Assembly (NCBI GenBank): GCA_018822805.1 | Contig: JAHJJU010000060.1 | Span: 1-61,800, forward strand | DNA length: 61,800 nucleotides | Direction: 5' to 3' | Source of the DNA: a bacterium | Lineage (GTDB): Bacteria; Campylobacterota; Campylobacteria; Campylobacterales; Sulfurovaceae | In this document: positions 50,781 through 61,800 of the stretch, in pieces | Layout of the letters: the number at the start of each line of letters is the position of its first letter | Numbering within the stretch: position 1 is the stretch's first letter | Notes under the pieces: model-generated | The model's input: the letters and a program-made list of their open reading frames with translations, nothing else | Told to the model about the DNA's origin: nothing | Databases searched by the model: none | Translations under genes and position numbers: made by a program

Positions 50781-50918
50781 ATTTTATACACAATAAACAT
50801 TAATTTTATGCGAACAAAGGGCAGAGACATGGCTCTGCCCCTACGGGGTTCAATAGGTTGTAGAGATTTTTTAACCTATGCGACTTGTAGGGGTCAAGCC
50901 GTGTCTTGACCCGATGCC
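50781..50918 (+). repeat. Composite REP-like dispersed element, copy 1
   Basis: About 135 bp. It has an AT-rich left part (ATTTTATACACAA...), a reversed unit GGGCAGAG/CTCTGCCC + CTACG (50819-50845), a central hairpin ATAGGTT/AACCTAT (50853, 50873), and a right unit GTAG + GGGTCAAG/CTTGACCC (50887-50912). A second copy with about five differences lies at 61664 in the same orientation. The two copies bracket the accessory genes, the adaptation genes and the CRISPR array. Confidence 0.8.
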
Positions 50919-52087: not shown

Positions 52088-53443
52088 ATGAAAAGAGCAG
52101 TTATTACGATTTTAGGAACAATAGGTGTACCAAGAGAGGGACAAGAGAAAGCAGAGTATTTTTTATCTGATAGCTTAAAAGAGGACTTCTCTGTAAAAAG
52201 AGATAGATACACCAATATGTTACCTCTTTTAATTGATAATTTAAAAGATAGTTATGGAACAATTGAGTGTATCTATACCGAAGATGCTCAAAAGATTCAA
52301 TCTAAGGTTTTAGATTATGAACATTTAGATTTTAAGATAGAAGACAATGGGTTTTTTATTTCTAATATTGATGGTGAAGCTGAAGCTAAATATTCCTTTT
52401 TTTTAGAAAAATATAATAAAGTTATCGAGAAATATGATAGAGTTATTATAGATGTAAGTCACGGTTTTAGACATTTACCAATTTTAGCAACTGTCGATAT
52501 GATTATGCAAAATATTAAAGACCCTAAAAAAATAGAGTATATTTTCTTTGCTAAAGAGATAGAGAAGTTTTCTAAGTATGAAGTTGTAGATTTAAAAGAG
52601 TATTTAGAGTTGGCAAATTTATCATTTATGCTCTCTAGTTTCAATCAAAATTATACAGTTTCATCTAATATTCGCTTTAAAAATCAACTTTATAAAAAAA
52701 TAGCTAAAGAGTTAAGTGATTTTTCTCATCATTTTTTGTCAAACTCTTTAAAGCCATTAATCGAAGGTAGTTTAATATCAGATATTATTGATAATTTAGA
52801 AAAGCTTCAAAAAGATAAGGCAGTTGAAAATTTTAAACATTATATTGAAGATATTATTTTGCATTTAGAAGATATACGACAGTTAAAATATGCTTCAGAG
52901 TGGCAAAAACTTTATGAAATTTCAAAAATTATGGATACACGAGGTTATCAGCTCAATGCCATTACATTGCTTTTTGAGTCTGTTGGTTTTTACTGTTTAG
53001 AGTCACTTTCTAATATAGATATGGTTGATAAAAGAACCAAAGAGTATTATGGATTTATAGCACAAAAAAGAAAACCTGAAAATATATATTCTACGTATAC
53101 AATGACAAACCAAATAAGAACTTTGGTCAAAATTCAAAATAGATTTCATGTGAGTGATGAACGTCTTTTTATTGCCAATGATAAAGTGAAAAACACTATT
53201 ATAGAGTATTTAGATGATGTCAGTCATATACATAAGTTTGAAAAGTTTATACAAGACTTAGAGGCATTAAGAAACAATCTAGCTCATGGCAATAGTAGTA
53301 ACAGTATAGGAAACGTAAAACAGTCTTATCAAAGTCATTTGAGTCGATTTAAGGATTTATGTATCGATAAAGATATTTTTTCAACAGCAAAACTCTTTGA
53401 TAAAAAAAGTACGGTAGATAGGTTAAATAACAAATGGCAATAA
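52088..53443 (+). CDS. csx1: Csx1-family CARF-HEPN ribonuclease (DxTHG type)
   Basis: 451 residues. The N-terminal CARF domain begins AVITILGTIGVP and carries RVIIDVSHGFRHLPILATVDM (about 119-139), the DxTHG motif with Ser for Thr. A helical region leads to a C-terminal HEPN domain with the catalytic Rx4H motif RNNLAHGN (R395, H400). Binding of cyclic oligoadenylate to CARF should activate HEPN to cut RNA. All key residues are present, in contrast to the degraded relative at 50253. It follows csx20 by 16 bases and overlaps the WYL gene by 10 bp. Confidence 0.87.
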   Translation: MKRAVITILGTIGVPREGQEKAEYFLSDSLKEDFSVKRDRYTNMLPLLIDNLKDSYGTIECIYTEDAQKIQSKVLDYEHLDFKIEDNGFFISNIDGEAEAKYSFFLEKYNKVIEKYDRVIIDVSHGFRHLPILATVDMIMQNIKDPKKIEYIFFAKEIEKFSKYEVVDLKEYLELANLSFMLSSFNQNYTVSSNIRFKNQLYKKIAKELSDFSHHFLSNSLKPLIEGSLISDIIDNLEKLQKDKAVENFKHYIEDIILHLEDIRQLKYASEWQKLYEISKIMDTRGYQLNAITLLFESVGFYCLESLSNIDMVDKRTKEYYGFIAQKRKPENIYSTYTMTNQIRTLVKIQNRFHVSDERLFIANDKVKNTIIEYLDDVSHIHKFEKFIQDLEALRNNLAHGNSSNSIGNVKQSYQSHLSRFKDLCIDKDIFSTAKLFDKKSTVDRLNNKWQ

Positions 53444-54393
53444 ACAAAAAAACAAACGCACTCTTCAAGTTAATGGAACGTTTCCTTGTTCAAAAAGAGA
53501 TAAATTCTCAGGATAAGGATATTTTACAAGAATTTGCGTGTGATAAAAAGACATTGGAGCGATATCTTAAAGATATAGAGTCGCTTTATGACCATATTAT
53601 TACCATTAAAAGAGGGAAACAAAATGTTTGGAAACTGATTTCTATTTCTGATATTTTTAATGAGTTTATTAAAAATAGTGAAAACATTTCACAACTCTTT
53701 TTAATGGCACAAGAGTTTGACCCTGAGATATTTAAAGAGTTGGAAAAGGGGACACTTTCTAAGATAGCCAAAAATGATGAGCATATTTTTTTGTTTAAAA
53801 ATTCCATTATGGAAGAGCTACAGAGTGAACACGCTAAAGAGATATTTAAAAAATTAAAATTAGCCATTCGTAACTCTGAGTATCGAGATATTGTTTACAC
53901 TTATGACTCAACAACGGTGTATAAAAATGCAAAATGTATTAAGTTGGTTTTTATGGACAATAACTGGTATTTGATTTTGATAGATGATACAAAAAAGTTG
54001 CTCTTTAGACGGTTGAGTTTTATTGCTGAGGTGAACTATGCCTCTAAAAGTACGTTTCATAGAAACGATATTCAACCCTATTTGGACTTTTTGGCAAGAG
54101 CTCAAAACAGCATGACACTTTATGATGTTGCACCCAAAGTAGCAACCATAAAAGCCACACCCAACATTGCCAAATATTTTGAAAAAGATATGAAAAAGTT
54201 TCTTCTCTCTCAAACCTTTTTAGAAACCTGTGACGATGGTGGGGTTTTGTTTACCATAAACTACACGCAAGAGTTAGAGATTTTCCCTTTTATACAAAAA
54301 TGGATGCCTGACTTGATAATTATTGAGCCATTAGAGCTTAAAGAATCGTATATTAAAAAATTAAATGCTACTTTAGAAAACCACCTCAACTAG
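53434..54393 (+). CDS. WYL-domain transcriptional regulator
   Basis: 319 residues. An N-terminal winged helix (DILQEFACDKKTLERYLKDIESLYDHI) is followed by a WYL domain (CIKLVFMDNNWYLILIDDTKKLLFRRLSFI), which senses nucleic acid or nucleotide ligands, and a C-terminal WCX-like part (FIQKWMPDLIIIEPLELKESY). WYL regulators are often found with CRISPR and other defence loci. It is cotranscribed with csx20 and csx1. It is the best candidate for binding the GACA-N5-TGTC dyads at four nearby promoters, one of which overlaps its stop codon and another of which drives its own operon. That link is inference. Confidence 0.85.
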   Translation: MAINKKTNALFKLMERFLVQKEINSQDKDILQEFACDKKTLERYLKDIESLYDHIITIKRGKQNVWKLISISDIFNEFIKNSENISQLFLMAQEFDPEIFKELEKGTLSKIAKNDEHIFLFKNSIMEELQSEHAKEIFKKLKLAIRNSEYRDIVYTYDSTTVYKNAKCIKLVFMDNNWYLILIDDTKKLLFRRLSFIAEVNYASKSTFHRNDIQPYLDFLARAQNSMTLYDVAPKVATIKATPNIAKYFEKDMKKFLLSQTFLETCDDGGVLFTINYTQELEIFPFIQKWMPDLIIIEPLELKESYIKKLNATLENHLN

Positions 54394-54604: not shown

Positions 54605-55306
54605 ATGGCAACATACAGTAGAGGTAATCATCTTGTGACAAACATTGATATTGTAGGTATGACAGAGCATCATGGGCTATATATTGGTAATGGTGAAGTG
54701 ATACATCTAAGTAGAAAAGGTGGTGGTGTACTTTGTACCTCTTTGTCATATTTTTCTGATGGTAATAGTATTCGTGTGAAGCGACAAGCATCTAATCCTA
54801 GTGAGGCTATTAGTAGAGCAAAGGAGTATGTTGGTGAGGAGGGATATTGTCTTTTTTCTAATAACTGTGAGCAGTTTGTTAACTATTGTATTAAAGGTAA
54901 AAAGAGTTCCAATCAAGTAAGCAATACGGCACATGGAGTAGCTCATGGAGCAGCTAGAGTAGGCGTATTAGGTGGAAATGTAGCCAAAGTTGCTGGAAGT
55001 ACATTGGGTGTTGTGACCATAGCTTCTACAGGTGCTAAATATGTGGGGGAGTACATAGGATTACCTGATAGTGTTAATACGGTTGTAGGATCTGTTGGAG
55101 ACTTGGTTGCTAAACCATTAGAGTCTGCTGTTGTGGGAGTGTTTGATACGGTAGGTAGTACTTTTGATAAGTTAAGTGATGGTGAGGTATTGGATGCTGG
55201 AGCAGAACTTATAGGTGGTACGATAAATACAGTCATAGATGTGGTCTCGGCACCTATTGAGGTGGTAGGAGATGTTTTTAGTGCTATTGGCTCATGGTTT
55301 GATTAA
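54605..55306 (+). CDS. LRAT-domain protein (NlpC/P60-like thiol enzyme) with hydrophobic tail
   Basis: 233 residues. The N-terminal half (about 1-105) has the LRAT fold marks: EHHGLYIGNGEVIHL (catalytic His) and FSNNCEQFVNYC (catalytic Cys in the NCExFV motif). LRAT-family enzymes are acyltransferases or phospholipases acting on membranes. The C-terminal half (about 110-233) is rich in Gly, Ala and Val, with amphipathic or membrane-binding stretches such as AGSTLGVVTIASTGAKYVGEY. Under a CRISPR-island promoter and after a small membrane peptide, it may be a lipid-attacking effector, though this has not been shown. AAGGAC precedes the ATG. Confidence 0.75.
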   Translation: MATYSRGNHLVTNIDIVGMTEHHGLYIGNGEVIHLSRKGGGVLCTSLSYFSDGNSIRVKRQASNPSEAISRAKEYVGEEGYCLFSNNCEQFVNYCIKGKKSSNQVSNTAHGVAHGAARVGVLGGNVAKVAGSTLGVVTIASTGAKYVGEYIGLPDSVNTVVGSVGDLVAKPLESAVVGVFDTVGSTFDKLSDGEVLDAGAELIGGTINTVIDVVSAPIEVVGDVFSAIGSWFD

Positions 55307-55362
55307 TGGGAGCAATAGAAAATTAATTAAATTAAAAAAATAGTTTAAATAATATTTCAACT

Positions 55363-55394
55363 AGACACCTTTTGTCCTTTTCTTTTCCTATACT
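55363..55394 (+). promoter_or_regulatory. Shared CRISPR-island promoter, copy 4 (upstream of cas2-RT-cas1)
   Basis: AGACACCTTTTGTCC, 11 bases, TATACT, 28 bases before the ATG of the 179-residue gene. The next genes follow closely, so cas2 and RT-cas1 are probably transcribed from here. Confidence 0.75.
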
Positions 55395-55421
55395 TCTCTT
55401 ATCAAAACAGAGGATAAAATT

Positions 55422-55961
55422 ATGAAATATGAACATTTGGTTTTATGGGAAACCCTGCACACTGAGACGGTTACTTGTAGAGCTGAACGGGCATATTTGG
55501 CTGATGAGGTTTTTACAATGCTTCAAAATGCTTATAAGAACGTGCAAGGTGGATTACACTTTTCTTGTGCTGATGAACTTGTGAGCAACACGGCTGTTTG
55601 GAAGGTGATTTATTATCAAGAGAATATTGTTGGTGTGGTGGTTTATAAGGCAAAGAGAGGATTGAAAATGGTTGCATTGGCACTGTCACATCAGCTTAAT
55701 CGACCTCTTAAAGAGCATACTAAGACCATGCTCTCTTATTTGTTTAAAATAACGTTTAACAACACATGGATGGAAGTGAGTGAATCTGCTGAACGTTTTA
55801 TTGTTGCCAATGGTGGGGCGAAGTATTTTATTTCAAATAGCCATGCACAGAAGCTTACAGGCAAAGAGATTGTTATGCTTTGTGATGATGGATACCATTA
55901 TAAACGGGTTATTAATGGGGTACTTAAGACCAAGGTTATGGTGGGTAACCCTAAATTTTAA
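55422..55961 (+). CDS. Unknown protein (179 aa) in the adaptation operon
   Basis: A soluble protein with alternating strands and helices. VWKVIYYQENIVGVVVYKAKRGLKMVALALS followed by a helix resembles a GNAT acetyltransferase core, but I cannot see a sure acetyl-CoA loop. The C terminus is basic. No CRISPR family is recognised. It is the first gene after shared promoter 4 and is followed after 10 bases by a 40-residue basic protein and then cas2 and RT-cas1. A role in adaptation is possible by position only. Confidence 0.65.
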   Translation: MKYEHLVLWETLHTETVTCRAERAYLADEVFTMLQNAYKNVQGGLHFSCADELVSNTAVWKVIYYQENIVGVVVYKAKRGLKMVALALSHQLNRPLKEHTKTMLSYLFKITFNNTWMEVSESAERFIVANGGAKYFISNSHAQKLTGKEIVMLCDDGYHYKRVINGVLKTKVMVGNPKF

Positions 55962-55971
55962 AGGAGAAATA

Positions 55972-56094
55972 ATGAAAGTGAGAAATTTTCATAAATTGGC
56001 TATTGTTCGTAGAGAGGCAAGGGGAAATACTACTACTGTTCCCTCTAAAAAAGTTTATCGGCGTAAAGTAAAGCATTTGAAACGCTTTGAATAA
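55972..56094 (+). CDS. 40-residue basic protein upstream of cas2
   Basis: MKVRNFHKLAIVRREARGN then TTTVPSKKVYRRKVKHLKRFE: about one third of residues are Lys or Arg, so it probably binds nucleic acid. A strong AAGGAG lies six bases before the ATG. It sits 10 bases after the 179-residue gene and 36 before cas2. I know no family for it. A helper of RT-Cas1/Cas2 is one possible role. Confidence 0.6.
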   Translation: MKVRNFHKLAIVRREARGNTTTVPSKKVYRRKVKHLKRFE

Positions 56095-56130: not shown

Positions 56131-56409
56131 ATGAAACTCCTTTTAACCTACGACATCAGCAACACTAAAAATAGAACCAAAGTCGCCACGTTATTAGAGA
56201 GCTACGGCTACCGTGTTAACTTCTCTGTGTTTGAGTTAGATATTAAAAAGCCAAAGCTTGAAGCGTTGTTAAAGAGCATAAAAAAGTTATGTGACAAGCA
56301 TGACTCTGTTCGCATTTATGCTTTCTCAGCAGATACCATTGAAAAGTCGTATGATTTAAATCCTAAACGACCCAATCCATTTGAAAAAAAGAGTAGCTAT
56401 GTTAACTAA
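56131..56409 (+). CDS. cas2: Cas2
   Basis: 92 residues with the ferredoxin-like Cas2 fold: MKLLLTYDISNTKNRTKVATLLESYG (first strand with the conserved Asp) and RVNFSVFELDI, then VRIYAFSADTIEKSYDL. It forms the adaptation complex with Cas1, here the RT-Cas1 fusion, whose start overlaps the cas2 end by 11 bp. Confidence 0.95.
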   Translation: MKLLLTYDISNTKNRTKVATLLESYGYRVNFSVFELDIKKPKLEALLKSIKKLCDKHDSVRIYAFSADTIEKSYDLNPKRPNPFEKKSSYVN

Positions 56410-58603
56410 AAAATTTGATAAACTCTTTTCAAACAAAAATCTTTTAAGCACATTAGAACTTTATAAAAAGACAAGAGGGTACAGTGAGGTAAAAGAGCTG
56501 ATAGTCTCTGGTGAGTTTCTTAAAAGTTTGAATAAAGGGTTTATACCAGACCCCATGAGTGGGTTTGAAGTACCAAAGAGCAATGGAGAGATGCGTAAAC
56601 TCGCTCAAGCTTCTATAACCTCTAAAGTGGTTCAAAAGATTATTGCCGAAGCACTTTTAGATGCTGTCAAGCTCAATAACAAATCTTACGCTTTTCGTAA
56701 AGGAAAAGGTGTGTTAAAAGCTGTTAATCGGACTAAAGATTTTCTAAAAAAATACTCATATATTGCTAAGGCTGATGTCAATGATTTTTTTGATAGTATC
56801 AATCAAGAGAAGCTCTTAATTGTTCTAAAGAGGGTGATAGCTGACAAAAAAATTATTATGCTTATCTCGCTGTTTCTAAAAAATGGGATGATGAAGCAGA
56901 ATGAGTGGGTAGACAAAAGCCAAGGGGTCTACCAAGGTGATGTCCTCTCTCCTGTCTTGTCTAATCTTTATCTGCACAGTTTTGACCAAGCCTTAGAGTC
57001 TAAAGGGATAGACTTTGTACGCTTTGCTGATGATATGCTCTTTTTTAGCAAAAGTGAAAAAGAGGCTAAAAAGGTTTTGACTATTGCTACGGTATATCTT
57101 AAAGCTCTTGATTTAAAATTTGGTGAAGATAAAAGTTATTTAGCCAGTGTAGAAAACGGTTTTGAGTTTTTAGGATTACGCTTTAAAGGTGAAACGATTC
57201 AGATGGACAATGAGCGTTTTCAAAAGAAACTTTCGACACTTTCTCAAAAAACTAAAAAGCAAAATCTTGAACAATCTATAACGTTTGTAAATGAATATTT
57301 GCTAGGAATTCGTCATTATTATTTTAAAGTCTTAAGTGACAAGCATCAACTCATACTGATAGCTGAACATATCGATGAGATATTGGTCAAAAAGATAGCT
57401 TTAGCCAAAAAAAGTAAAGAGATAAATAAAAAATCAAAGTTTATTCAAATCTTGGTAGAGCTTCAAGACTTAGAACATAACACCCAAGAAGAGAAACAGA
57501 AACACGCCCACAATCTGGTCGCACGAGCCTACGAAGCCATCACCCTAGAGAAGCCACTTGAAAATGCTGAAAAGAAGATGGTAAAGAAAAAGAGCAACTT
57601 TCTGCAAGAGCAGATAAAAAGCTCCGAGATTATTTTGAACCGTTTTGGGTTGTATGTGAGTATGAGCAAAGGTAAGATTGTGGTCAAAGAGTATGGGAAG
57701 GTGATTCAGACTTCACCTGTGAACTGGGTAACACGCCTTATTGTTATGACCAAAGGGGTGTCGCTCTCTTCTAATCTAATTTTAGAGTGCAGCAAACGCA
57801 AGATAGACATCGACTTTATAGAGAAAAGCAAACCCTATGCTCAGATAACCTATTTTGAAAACATCAGTAATGAGCTTCATCTCAAACAGATAGATATGAA
57901 AAATAGCAAAAAAGGGCTAAAGACAGCAACCTCTATCATCAAAGCAAAGATGAAAAATCAGATAAATCTTATAAAGTACTATTCGCGTTATCGTGAGCGT
58001 GAAGATATAGAGACTTTTAAAGAGTTAGAACGCTCTATTGAACAGATGGAGGGGATAGCTAACAAGATAAAAAATGCCAAAGATGTTCCTGCATTGATGG
58101 GGTATGAGGGTAGCCTTTCGGTGCTATACTGGAAATCATTTGGTATTTTAATCGATAATCGTCAGTTTAAACGAGAGACTTTGAATGCTCCTGATGCTAT
58201 TAATCAGTCACTCAACTATGGGTATGCATTTATTTACCATAGAGTTCAGTCGGCTCTACTTAAAACTGGTGTCAATATCTACCATTCATTTCTACACACC
58301 TCTCAAGCTAACAAACCGACACTAGTTTTTGATATGGTGGAGTTGTTTCGTCAAATGGTAGTCGATAGAGAGATAATTTCTATTTTGAATCATGGAACAG
58401 CGTTGCATTCAAGTAAGGGGCGTTTGACCAAAAAGAGCGTTAAAGTGATTACCGAAAATGTACAAGAGCGATTAGCCACCCCAACCAAGTGGCGAAAAGG
58501 GAAGTATAAAATTGTCACCATTATCGATGAACAGGCGTTGGAGCTTTCGCATGTAATTAAGGGTATAAAGCCTAATTTTAAGGGCTTTGTGGGGCGTTTT
58601 TGA
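56399..58603 (+). CDS. cas1: Reverse transcriptase-Cas1 fusion
   Basis: 734 residues from ATG 56399 (a TTG six codons upstream is a weaker start). The RT domain (about 45-300) has KSYAFRKGKGV, IAKADVNDFFDSI (motif A, D126), GVYQGDVLSPVLSNLYLH (motif B) and VRFADDMLFFS (catalytic FADD 209-212). After a helical linker the Cas1 domain (about 405-734) keeps its metal ligands: E570 in MGYEGSLSVLYW, H633 in YHSFLHTSQ and D645 in LVFDMVELFR. Such fusions can integrate spacers from RNA as well as DNA. There is no Cas6 domain at the N terminus, unlike some relatives. The CRISPR leader follows. Confidence 0.96.
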   Translation: MLTKKFDKLFSNKNLLSTLELYKKTRGYSEVKELIVSGEFLKSLNKGFIPDPMSGFEVPKSNGEMRKLAQASITSKVVQKIIAEALLDAVKLNNKSYAFRKGKGVLKAVNRTKDFLKKYSYIAKADVNDFFDSINQEKLLIVLKRVIADKKIIMLISLFLKNGMMKQNEWVDKSQGVYQGDVLSPVLSNLYLHSFDQALESKGIDFVRFADDMLFFSKSEKEAKKVLTIATVYLKALDLKFGEDKSYLASVENGFEFLGLRFKGETIQMDNERFQKKLSTLSQKTKKQNLEQSITFVNEYLLGIRHYYFKVLSDKHQLILIAEHIDEILVKKIALAKKSKEINKKSKFIQILVELQDLEHNTQEEKQKHAHNLVARAYEAITLEKPLENAEKKMVKKKSNFLQEQIKSSEIILNRFGLYVSMSKGKIVVKEYGKVIQTSPVNWVTRLIVMTKGVSLSSNLILECSKRKIDIDFIEKSKPYAQITYFENISNELHLKQIDMKNSKKGLKTATSIIKAKMKNQINLIKYYSRYREREDIETFKELERSIEQMEGIANKIKNAKDVPALMGYEGSLSVLYWKSFGILIDNRQFKRETLNAPDAINQSLNYGYAFIYHRVQSALLKTGVNIYHSFLHTSQANKPTLVFDMVELFRQMVVDREIISILNHGTALHSSKGRLTKKSVKVITENVQERLATPTKWRKGKYKIVTIIDEQALELSHVIKGIKPNFKGFVGRF

Positions 58604-59033
58604 TACAAAACAATTTACAAACTTTTTTGCTAAGTTTATTTTAAGCTAAAATCGAAGAGAAGCCTACTATTTCGGGCTTCTCTTTTTTTGCCTCTATTTC
58701 AAAAAGTTTGTAAGTCTCACTTTTTTTAAAAAACTTTTGAGACTTACAAACTTTTATTTTTTTTTAAGTTTTAAGTGCCTATTTTTCGGGGGTTGCGAAA
58801 CTTAGATGTAGCTAAAAGTTTGTAAGTCTTAAAAATCAGCCATAGCCTAAAGAGAGTTACAAACTTTTTTTGAGTAACAAATCCCTAAATCTAGGGACTT
58901 TAAGAAAAAAACAAGCCAAGTTGGTGTATAGTTTTTCATAGACTTACAAACTTTTTGTAAAAGCTCCATAAAATAACACTGTTAAGATAATTAATAGTTT
59001 CACATATTTTTAATACTGCCCAGCTTATGGGCT
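58604..59033 (+). promoter_or_regulatory. CRISPR leader region with inverted motif family
   Basis: A 430-bp gene-free region between RT-cas1 and the first repeat. After the terminator it is AT-rich. It has six copies of a motif with core AAAGTTTGTAA (or reverse TTACAAACTTT): near 58615, 58701, 58739, 58814, 58856 and 58940, in both orientations. Copies two and three form a perfect 17-bp inverted repeat (58702-58718, 58739-58755). A small hairpin GCCCA/TGGGC (59018-59032) touches the first repeat. The array promoter must lie here, but I cannot place it with confidence. Confidence 0.65.
58657..58690 (+). terminator. Intrinsic terminator after RT-cas1
   Basis: 8-bp stem GAGAAGCC/GGCTTCTC with loop TACTATTTCG, followed by a run of seven T. 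It lies about 55 bases after the RT-cas1 stop and separates the operon from the CRISPR leader. Confidence 0.8.
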
Positions 59034-61666
59034 ATTCACAAACCAATGACCCGACTTAGGGGATTGAAACGTTTTCCGAAAATTTTTAGCATTATAAATC
59101 CTTTAAGATTCACAAACCAATGACCCGACTTAGGGGATTGAAACAAAATTCTGATTTTGTGGAAAAGTATCTGTCACCAATATTCACAAACCAATGACCC
59201 GACTTAGGGGATTGAAACTTTTGTAATAGACTTTGGAACTAATATCTTATTTACTTTATTCACAAACCAATGACCCGACTTAGGGGATTGAAACGCTTTT
59301 CCTCAAACTTATCGATTTCTCGAGAAGTTTTCTGTATTCACAAACCAATGACCCGACTTAGGGGATTGAAACATATCTTTTGATATCCTCTTGGATACTG
59401 CTTCATAACAATTCACAAACCAATGACCCGACTTAGGGGATTGAAACTTGATTTTACGGTAGTTCTAGGTTACGATCATTCAATATATTCACAAACCAAT
59501 GACCCGACTTAGGGGATTGAAACATAAAATTGGTAGATCACTAACTCTAAATATTAGAGTAGTTTCTTCATTCACAAACCAATGACCCGACTTAGGGGAT
59601 TGAAACCAATTTCCATTTTTACAGGGTTAGAGACTACCTTTCTGCTTTATTCACAAACCAATGACCCGACTTAGGGGATTGAAACCTACTTCTTCATTCA
59701 TTTTATTTCCTTATATAAATTCACAAACCAATGACCCGACTTAGGGGATTGAAACGTACCATCGCTGATACTATTAAAAACACTCCTTCACGTATTCACA
59801 AACCAATGACCCGACTTAGGGGATTGAAACGAAGAACTTTAATTTTTCTTCGATACTCCCACTTATTCACAAACCAATGACCCGACTTAGGGGATTGAAA
59901 CTTCTTTATCTGTTTCAGATTCGGAGAAGTAGAACTTTGATTCACAAACCAATGACCCGACTTAGGGGATTGAAACGATTATAGCCAGTCCATCAGTCAT
60001 GTACAATCCTTATTCACAAACCAATGACCCGACTTAGGGGATTGAAACGAGTGGTAGTAAGCCTCATAATCTATTCTGTAGCTGTATTATTCACAAACCA
60101 ATGACCCGACTTAGGGGATTGAAACCTTGAATGTACCATAGTACTTGTACCCACCACGCATTCACAAACCAATGACCCGACTTAGGGGATTGAAACTCAG
60201 ACGTGAGATTATCCATGTTTTTAATGGCTTTAATCTCTATTCACAAACCAATGACCCGACTTAGGGGATTGAAACAATTTACTTAGATTACCAAATGACT
60301 CTGGTATAGATTCACAAACCAATGACCCGACTTAGGGGATTGAAACACGTCAATGCGTTCTATATCGTCTAGCTTACTTATTCACAAACCAATGACCCGA
60401 CTTAGGGGATTGAAACATTTCAGTCATCGGTCTTGCTAACAGTTCCATAATATTCACAAACCAATGACCCGACTTAGGGGATTGAAACTAGTAAGCCTCA
60501 TAATCTATTTTATAGTCGTATTGTATTCACAAACCAATGACCCGACTTAGGGGATTGAAACTCATCCCAATCATACCTGAAAGGGTCCTTAAGCATTACG
60601 GCATTCACAAACCAATGACCCGACTTAGGGGATTGAAACTCAGAAGCTTCTATTGACTTAATGCCAGATAGTCTTCTTATTCACAAACCAATGACCCGAC
60701 TTAGGGGATTGAAACCCATAGTACCTGTACCCTGAACGTATTTCACCCCAGTCGTAGATTCACAAACCAATGACCCGACTTAGGGGATTGAAACATAGAA
60801 ATATATTTCTCTCCCACTTTCACGACTTCTCTATTTATTCACAAACCAATGACCCGACTTAGGGGATTGAAACATAGTACTTGTACCCACCACGCATTTC
60901 ACCCCAATCATAATTCACAAACCAATGACCCGACTTAGGGGATTGAAACGACGTACCCTCATAAATGATAGAACCAAATAAATTCACAAACCAATGACCC
61001 GACTTAGGGGATTGAAACTAGCTTTAGCATGGATGGTCTTACGAGTCTCTGCATATTCACAAACCAATGACCCGACTTAGGGGATTGAAACAGCTAAGGC
61101 ATTGATACCTTTATATGTCTCACCAAATACATTCACAAACCAATGACCCGACTTAGGGGATTGAAACGAGTTATCTCTCATTGCGTACGGATTACCTAAA
61201 GATTCACAAACCAATGACCCGACTTAGGGGATTGAAACGTTTAGCTTCATCATCTTTAGTTATTGGTTTAATACCAGATATTCACAAACCAATGACCCGA
61301 CTTAGGGGATTGAAACTTGTTACCAGTCCATTTCTCCTTAATGCCAATCGGGAGATTCACAAACCAATGACCCGACTTAGGGGATTGAAACCGTCTGGTG
61401 CTCCTCATGTATGTCCACTATATCAAATATTCACAAACCAATGACCCGACTTAGGGGATTGAAACATCATAAATCTTAGTTCATCCATATTCCAATCTAT
61501 TACAATATGACCCGATTTTTAGGGGATTGAAACTTGCCCCAAGAACAGGGCTTATGAGTTGTTCGTTATTACAATATGACCCGATTTTTAGGGGATTGAA
61601 ACTTTCTCTAAAACTTTTAATCTCACCTCTTTACTGATTACAATATGACCCGATTTTTAGGGGATT
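59034..61666 (+). CRISPR. CRISPR array: 33 canonical plus 3 variant repeats, 35 spacers
   Basis: The canonical 37-bp repeat starts ATTCACAAACCAATG and ends AGGGGATTGAAAC; 33 copies run from 59034 to 61465. The ATTGAAAC end gives the usual 8-base crRNA handle and sets transcription left to right, away from RT-cas1. Three leader-distal copies are of a second 35-bp type that starts ATTACAATATGACCCGA (61499-61533, 61568-61602, and 61637-61666). The last is cut short after GGGGATT by a dispersed element. Spacers run from 32 to 46 bp; such loose lengths fit type III systems. Several spacers are related to one another. I saw no spacer match inside this window. Confidence 0.98.
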
Positions 61667-61797
61667 TTATACACAACAAACATTAATTTTATGCCAACAA
61701 AGGGCAGAGACATGGCTCTGCCCCTACGGGTTCAATAGGTTGTAGAGATTTTTTAACCTATGCGACCTGTAGGGGTCAAGCCATGTCTTGACCCTTT
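61664..61797 (+). repeat. Composite REP-like dispersed element, copy 2
   Basis: Near-identical to the element at 50781-50918, same orientation, with about five differences over 130 bp. Hairpin units are at 61702-61728 (GGGCAGAG/CTCTGCCC + CTACG) and 61769-61794 (GTAG + GGGTCAAG/CTTGACCC). Its left edge removes the last five bases of the final CRISPR repeat. Confidence 0.8.
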
Positions 61798-61800
61798 GCC

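Follow-up and report, generated by a model that had tools for sequence, protein, structure and literature searches.

Between positions 58613 and 58955, the CRISPR leader of the window (the whole stretch of 61,800 nucleotides analyzed here) carries a motif of 14-16 nt in six copies, with the orientation − + − + − −. Of about 42 leaders fitted, 36, from Campylobacterota CRISPR loci with RT-Cas1, show the same six-slot layout. The motif consists of a nearly constant half, AACTTTT, and a half of about 9 nt that is locus-specific (GACTTACAA in the window) and is recoded jointly in most or all copies of a given leader, so far in about a dozen variants. We consider the best explanation, at a probability of roughly 55%, to be a helically phased, putative binding array for the adaptation complex, which would fold the leader and mark the integration site. 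The relevant features of the window are as follows.

53434 to 54393, + strand: WYL/WCX-type regulator of the type III locus, the alternative reader
56131 to 56409, + strand: cas2
56399 to 58603, + strand: gene for the RT-Cas1 fusion (RVT_1 + Cas_Cas1), whose product would be the principal component of the reader
58613 to 58626, − strand: copy 1 (slot 1), directly after the RT-cas1 stop codon
58655 to 58690, + strand: terminator-like hairpin (inverted repeat I13) with a T run, between copies 1 and 2
58702 to 58719, + strand: copy 2 (slot 2), forming a perfect 18-bp inverted repeat with copy 3
58738 to 58755, − strand: copy 3 (slot 3)
58762 to 58807, no strand: imperfect palindrome TTAAGTTT..GCCTATTTTTCGGGGG..GAAACTTA at the center, flanked by copies 3 and 4
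58814 to 58829, + strand: copy 4 (slot 4), the slot most often degenerate in relatives
58852 to 58869, − strand: copy 5 (slot 5)
58939 to 58955, − strand: copy 6 (slot 6), its ACTTTT starting 84 bp before the first repeat
58969 to 58974, + strand: −10-like hexamer TAAAAT, a consensus match only and a candidate pre-crRNA promoter
59034 to 59070, + strand: first CRISPR repeat, whose leader edge is the integration site

Exact AAAGTTTGTAA cores are located at 58615 (−), 58703 (+), 58744 (−), 58815 (+), 58857 (−), and 58944 (−), all of them downstream of the RT-cas1 stop codon and ahead of the first CRISPR repeat; no further exact core was found in the window outside this set. The six copies reported in the initial annotation are consequently real. 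The alternating orientation described there holds for copies 1 to 5 and breaks at copy 6, and the longest perfect inverted pair, given as 17 bp, actually measures 18 bp (58702-58719/58738-58755; copies 2 and 3). The window leader scored 82/84 in the six-slot fit while shuffles of the same leader reached at most 59; since the same arrangement also occurs in 36 leaders, a chance origin is excluded. The central palindrome is alike in most leaders, and the TAAAAT hexamer of the window begins 19 nt after the ACTTTT start of copy 6. Searches with the window leader yielded no Rfam match and no similar DNA in the plasmid collection. Viral contigs contained no relatives.

RT-Cas1 relatives were drawn from genome contigs, Campylobacterota genomes, and Arcobacter plasmids, and the DNA downstream of each was read. 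A leader was scored as carrying the layout at a six-slot fit of at least 70/84, with Markov shuffles of four leaders never exceeding 61. The loci that pass this threshold belong to several families and reside on chromosomes as well as on plasmids, and the genes adjoining the array are RT-cas1 and cas2 throughout. This comparison of related RT-Cas1 leaders, which had been suggested together with the first description of the motif, hence found the layout to be shared. In the window and in the 36 leaders the array occupies the position of a leader motif, between the cas genes and the first repeat, and across related leaders both its sequence and its distance or phase relative to the junction are constrained. 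Behind Cas1 genes lacking an RT domain (L071, L080, L081, L082, L088, L093), no six-slot array was detected, nor was one present at L085, an RT-Cas1 locus with no adjoining CRISPR array. One clade of Helicobacter, in which Cas1 has no RT part (L031, L032), carries a partly decayed array; L032 retains only copies 1, 3, and 6, which may reflect decay after loss of the RT.

The array can also be found apart from an intact adaptation module. At L044 (5063-5691), an orphan CRISPR array is preceded by a leader that is 96% identical, and only the 3′ end of cas1 is left; the leader array therefore travels with CRISPR arrays. A pattern scan blind to cas genes uncovered the relic of a leader next to a solitary CRISPR repeat (L100, 4830-5310, in G022), in which a segment of the array is duplicated (212 bp apart) ahead of the single repeat and no cas genes were recognized in the 11 kb examined. 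The rigid pattern alone thus sufficed to find a CRISPR leader without cas genes and can serve as an annotation marker, although the frequent degeneracy of slot 4 makes it too strict for a class-wide scan.

The distances between the slots follow a regular scheme. Slots 2 to 5 form a rigid block, with 48-50 bp between slots 2 and 3 and again between slots 4 and 5, and 64-66 bp between slots 3 and 4 (54-55 bp in the GATGTTAG clade). The outer distances fall into classes: 46-47, 58-59, 69, or 81-83 bp for slots 1 to 2; 87-88 or 96-99 bp for slots 5 to 6; and mostly 68-72, 79-84, 93-96, or 107 bp from copy 6 to the first repeat, with 115 and 129 bp in one clade. The variable spacings, including that from site 6 to the leader-repeat junction, shift by steps of roughly 10-12 bp. 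The best-fitting common step is about 11.7 bp, which is longer than 10.5 bp and is an estimate built on few independent changes, on related leaders that are not independent of each other, and on class means set by eye. Because repression loops in E. coli show a helical repeat of about 11 bp per turn in vivo (PMC8501960), a value close to this step, the stepped spacing, taken with due caution regarding the step test, points to a looped or wrapped DNA-protein complex.

Variants of the motif are distributed over the loci as follows.

GACTTACAAACTTTT: window, L039/L047, L044
GTTTGCGAACTTTT: L037, L038
GATGTTAGAACTTTT: L009, L010, L056
GATTCTCCAACTTTT: L042
TGTACGTACTTTT: L054, L055
TTTTCGAACTTTT: Campylobacter L022, L024, L033
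TTTGCGAACTTTT: L012-L019 and others

Over the nine variable positions, copies differ on average at 1.00 position within a leader vs. 2.54 between leaders, and copies occupying the same slot in different leaders differ at 2.50; in L056, all six 14-mers are identical. The concerted nature of the recoding is most evident in the pair L047 (the same locus as L039) and L038. Their RT, Cas2, and Cas1 domains are 99, 98, and 91% identical, respectively, and their leaders agree at 36/36 positions of the constant halves and at 81% of the remainder vs. only 31/54 positions of the variable halves. Where the motif is held in common, the variable half is conserved beyond its surroundings: 53/54 variable positions against a backbone identity of 73% for the window (L007) vs. 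L047, and 51/54 against 78% for L037 vs. L038. The six sites that distinguish L047 from L038 may have been altered one by one in situ, or the change may have come about through exchange of a segment; whichever occurred, the uniformity of all six copies is maintained by selection. We also considered the CRISPR repeat as the element co-varying with the motif and rejected it, since L038 and L039/L047 possess an identical repeat and different motifs.

From the conserved slots, the helix-like steps, the constant half-site, the concerted recoding, and the association with RT-Cas1, it is highly probable that the array is DNA read by a protein, as the initial annotation had proposed when it suggested a binding array for a leader-recognition or regulatory protein. 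The phased array would then constitute six binding sites in double-stranded DNA, each composed of AACTTTT and a locus-specific half, and one trans-acting DNA-binding complex, co-inherited with the adaptation module, would read all of them. For the RT-Cas1/Cas2 integrase as this reader, probably via the C-terminal part of Cas1, we see slightly better than even odds. By wrapping or looping the leader of roughly 340 bp, the complex would keep the leader-repeat junction in register for the insertion of spacers and mark the integration site, in what may be an IHF-independent counterpart of the leader folding of type I-E and type I-F systems. Among five close loci, the only RT-Cas1 residues that track the motif class are 665, 669, 733, and 734, all of them in Cas1 and none in the RT part; the C-terminus of Cas1 adjoins the leader, so that this co-change could also stem from recombination linkage. 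Correlations with motif distance are similar for RT (0.51), Cas1 (0.56), and Cas2 (0.44), and the RT-Cas1 structure predicted from six close sequences had a pLDDT of 41, which left the four class-following Cas1 residues unplaced. A further step, which we put forward tentatively and at somewhat less than even odds, is that the six phased sites provide a private, recodable address evolving in step with the C-terminal part of Cas1; each array would then be recognized by its own complex alone.

In the main rival reading, the sites are operators through which a factor distinct from Cas1-Cas2, be it a transcription regulator (for example of the WYL family) or a nucleoid-type factor, controls how the CRISPR array or the cas genes are transcribed. 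WYL regulators of CRISPR loci are known, and in many loci with the array a WYL-family protein is encoded at a distance of up to about 4-12 kb from RT-Cas1. In about one-third of the leaders, copy 6 is followed at 17-21 nt by a −10-like hexamer, which would fit transcriptional control. However, the DNA-binding domain of the WYL protein does not track the motif variant: it is 69% identical between the window and L101, whose motifs differ, and only 27% identical between L037 and L038, whose motif is the same. Two WYL searches gave no match in the fragmented genomes G472 and G375, both of which possess the array, and copy 6 lies at stepped distances from the repeat edge, where integration takes place, which speaks against an operator array. 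We therefore rejected the WYL regulator as the reader and hold the operator reading in general to be unlikely, if still one to be reckoned with. Two other possible readers fared no better. An IHF-dependent leader was rejected, as the consensus WATCAANNNNTTR is absent from the window leader and occurs in 1 of 36 leaders, and the basic protein of 40 residues named in the initial annotation is an unlikely candidate, since it lies outside the conserved neighborhood: in L037, the interval from the CARF gene to cas2 encodes no such protein.

A structured leader RNA, with hairpins formed by copies 2:3 and 4:5, or by 3:4, and acting as regulator, RT template, or primer, would account for the copies being inverted repeats and for the window leader folding far more stably than its shuffles (z −6.6). 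This pairing is not maintained across relatives: the + copies are weak in many leaders (slot 4 is strong in 42% and slot 2 in 75%, vs. 92-100% for the − slots), and several leaders that retain the − copies fold with z scores of only −0.4 to −1.7. Moreover, copies 1 and 6 stand outside both facing pairs, RNA pairing needs no constant AACTTTT, spacing steps of about one helical turn are unexpected for an RNA, and Rfam offered no match to a structured RNA. The RNA part of the earlier interpretation, including the RT template, is accordingly disfavored, and we regard it as improbable, while its protein-binding part finds support. Copies are more alike within a leader than between leaders, which a selfish, dispersed, or concertedly converted repeat with no leader role would also produce, but the slot spacing has already largely refuted this idea, to which we attach hardly any weight. 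The motif is confined to CRISPR leaders with slots fixed in many genera, and the shared stretches cover only about 14-18 bp between unrelated flanks, a pattern hardly produced by short conversion tracts. Genome-wide dispersal, named at the outset as an observation that would count against a leader function, was not seen: allowing up to one mismatch, the 15-mer AAAGTTTGTAAGTCT has five matches in the window leader and one, with a single mismatch, elsewhere in the whole genome of 2.79 Mb, and a REP/MITE-like dispersed repeat was rejected on these grounds.

The putative binding array for the adaptation complex resembles the leader motifs of type I-E and type I-F systems (Cas1-2/3 with IHF) in being short conserved DNA upstream of the first repeat at a defined distance from it. 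In type I-F, the Cas2 residues R55/N56 contact inverted-repeat leader motifs, and the leader folded with IHF allows the integrase to find the junction (PMC12259127). In contrast to the short upstream motif and IHF sites of those systems, the leaders studied here have six copies spread over about 340 bp, lack the IHF consensus in 35 of 36 cases, and have half of the motif recoded between loci. Leader elements of the type I-A system of Sulfolobus islandicus are read by Cas1 together with the accessory factor Csa3a, a likeness in that reading is shared between the integrase and an accessory factor; the elements reported there are a leader-proximal stem-loop and a leader-distal motif rather than an array of six copies with locus-specific recoding (PMC9456107). 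The modules of Marinomonas mediterranea and Thiomicrospira share with ours the RT-Cas1 fusion, Cas2, and integration beside the first repeat, but their proteins additionally carry Cas6 and were assayed with leaders of 20-163 bp (PMC11014452, PMC8102632). RT-Cas1 proteins studied in vitro integrate with leaders of 20-40 bp (PMC11014452) or 49 bp (PMC8102632), and because such short leaders suffice, an array of this kind is not needed for the integration chemistry in those systems.

A six-copy, recodable leader array was not found in the literature that we examined, in which leader-motif surveys are incompletely covered, so that novelty is unproven. The array bears on how integrases without an obvious IHF site locate the edge of a CRISPR array, above all in RT-Cas1 systems, which can write RNA-derived memories. 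If our reading is correct, a six-site phased array with interchangeable specificity would offer a testable answer to the question of array-edge recognition, and near-identical loci with different motifs would represent natural orthogonal pairs of integrase and address, and thereby a handle for recording tools.

Several other features of the window were recorded. Between the regulator and cas2 (54605-56094) lie an LRAT-domain gene and two small genes, one of which encodes the 40-residue basic protein; all three are absent from the corresponding place in L037. The three repeats at the distal end of the array (61499-61665) are of an older type, reading TTACAATATGACCCGATTTTTAGGGGATTGAAAC vs. ATTCACAAACCAATGACCCGACTTAGGGGATTGAAAC in the proximal ones. 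Spacers in 60052-60530 and 60100-60935 overlap or nearly match (TAGTAAGCCTCATAATCTATT occurs twice, and several contain CCATAGTAC(C/T)TGTACCC), which would fit repeated sampling of related targets. Finally, a similar stretch (AAGGGCAGAGACATGGCTCTGCCCC...) seems to be present at both 50820-50910 and 61695-61800; the copy near 50.8 kb apparently disrupts an ORF of the CARF/HEPN type, and the stretch looks like a small dispersed element.
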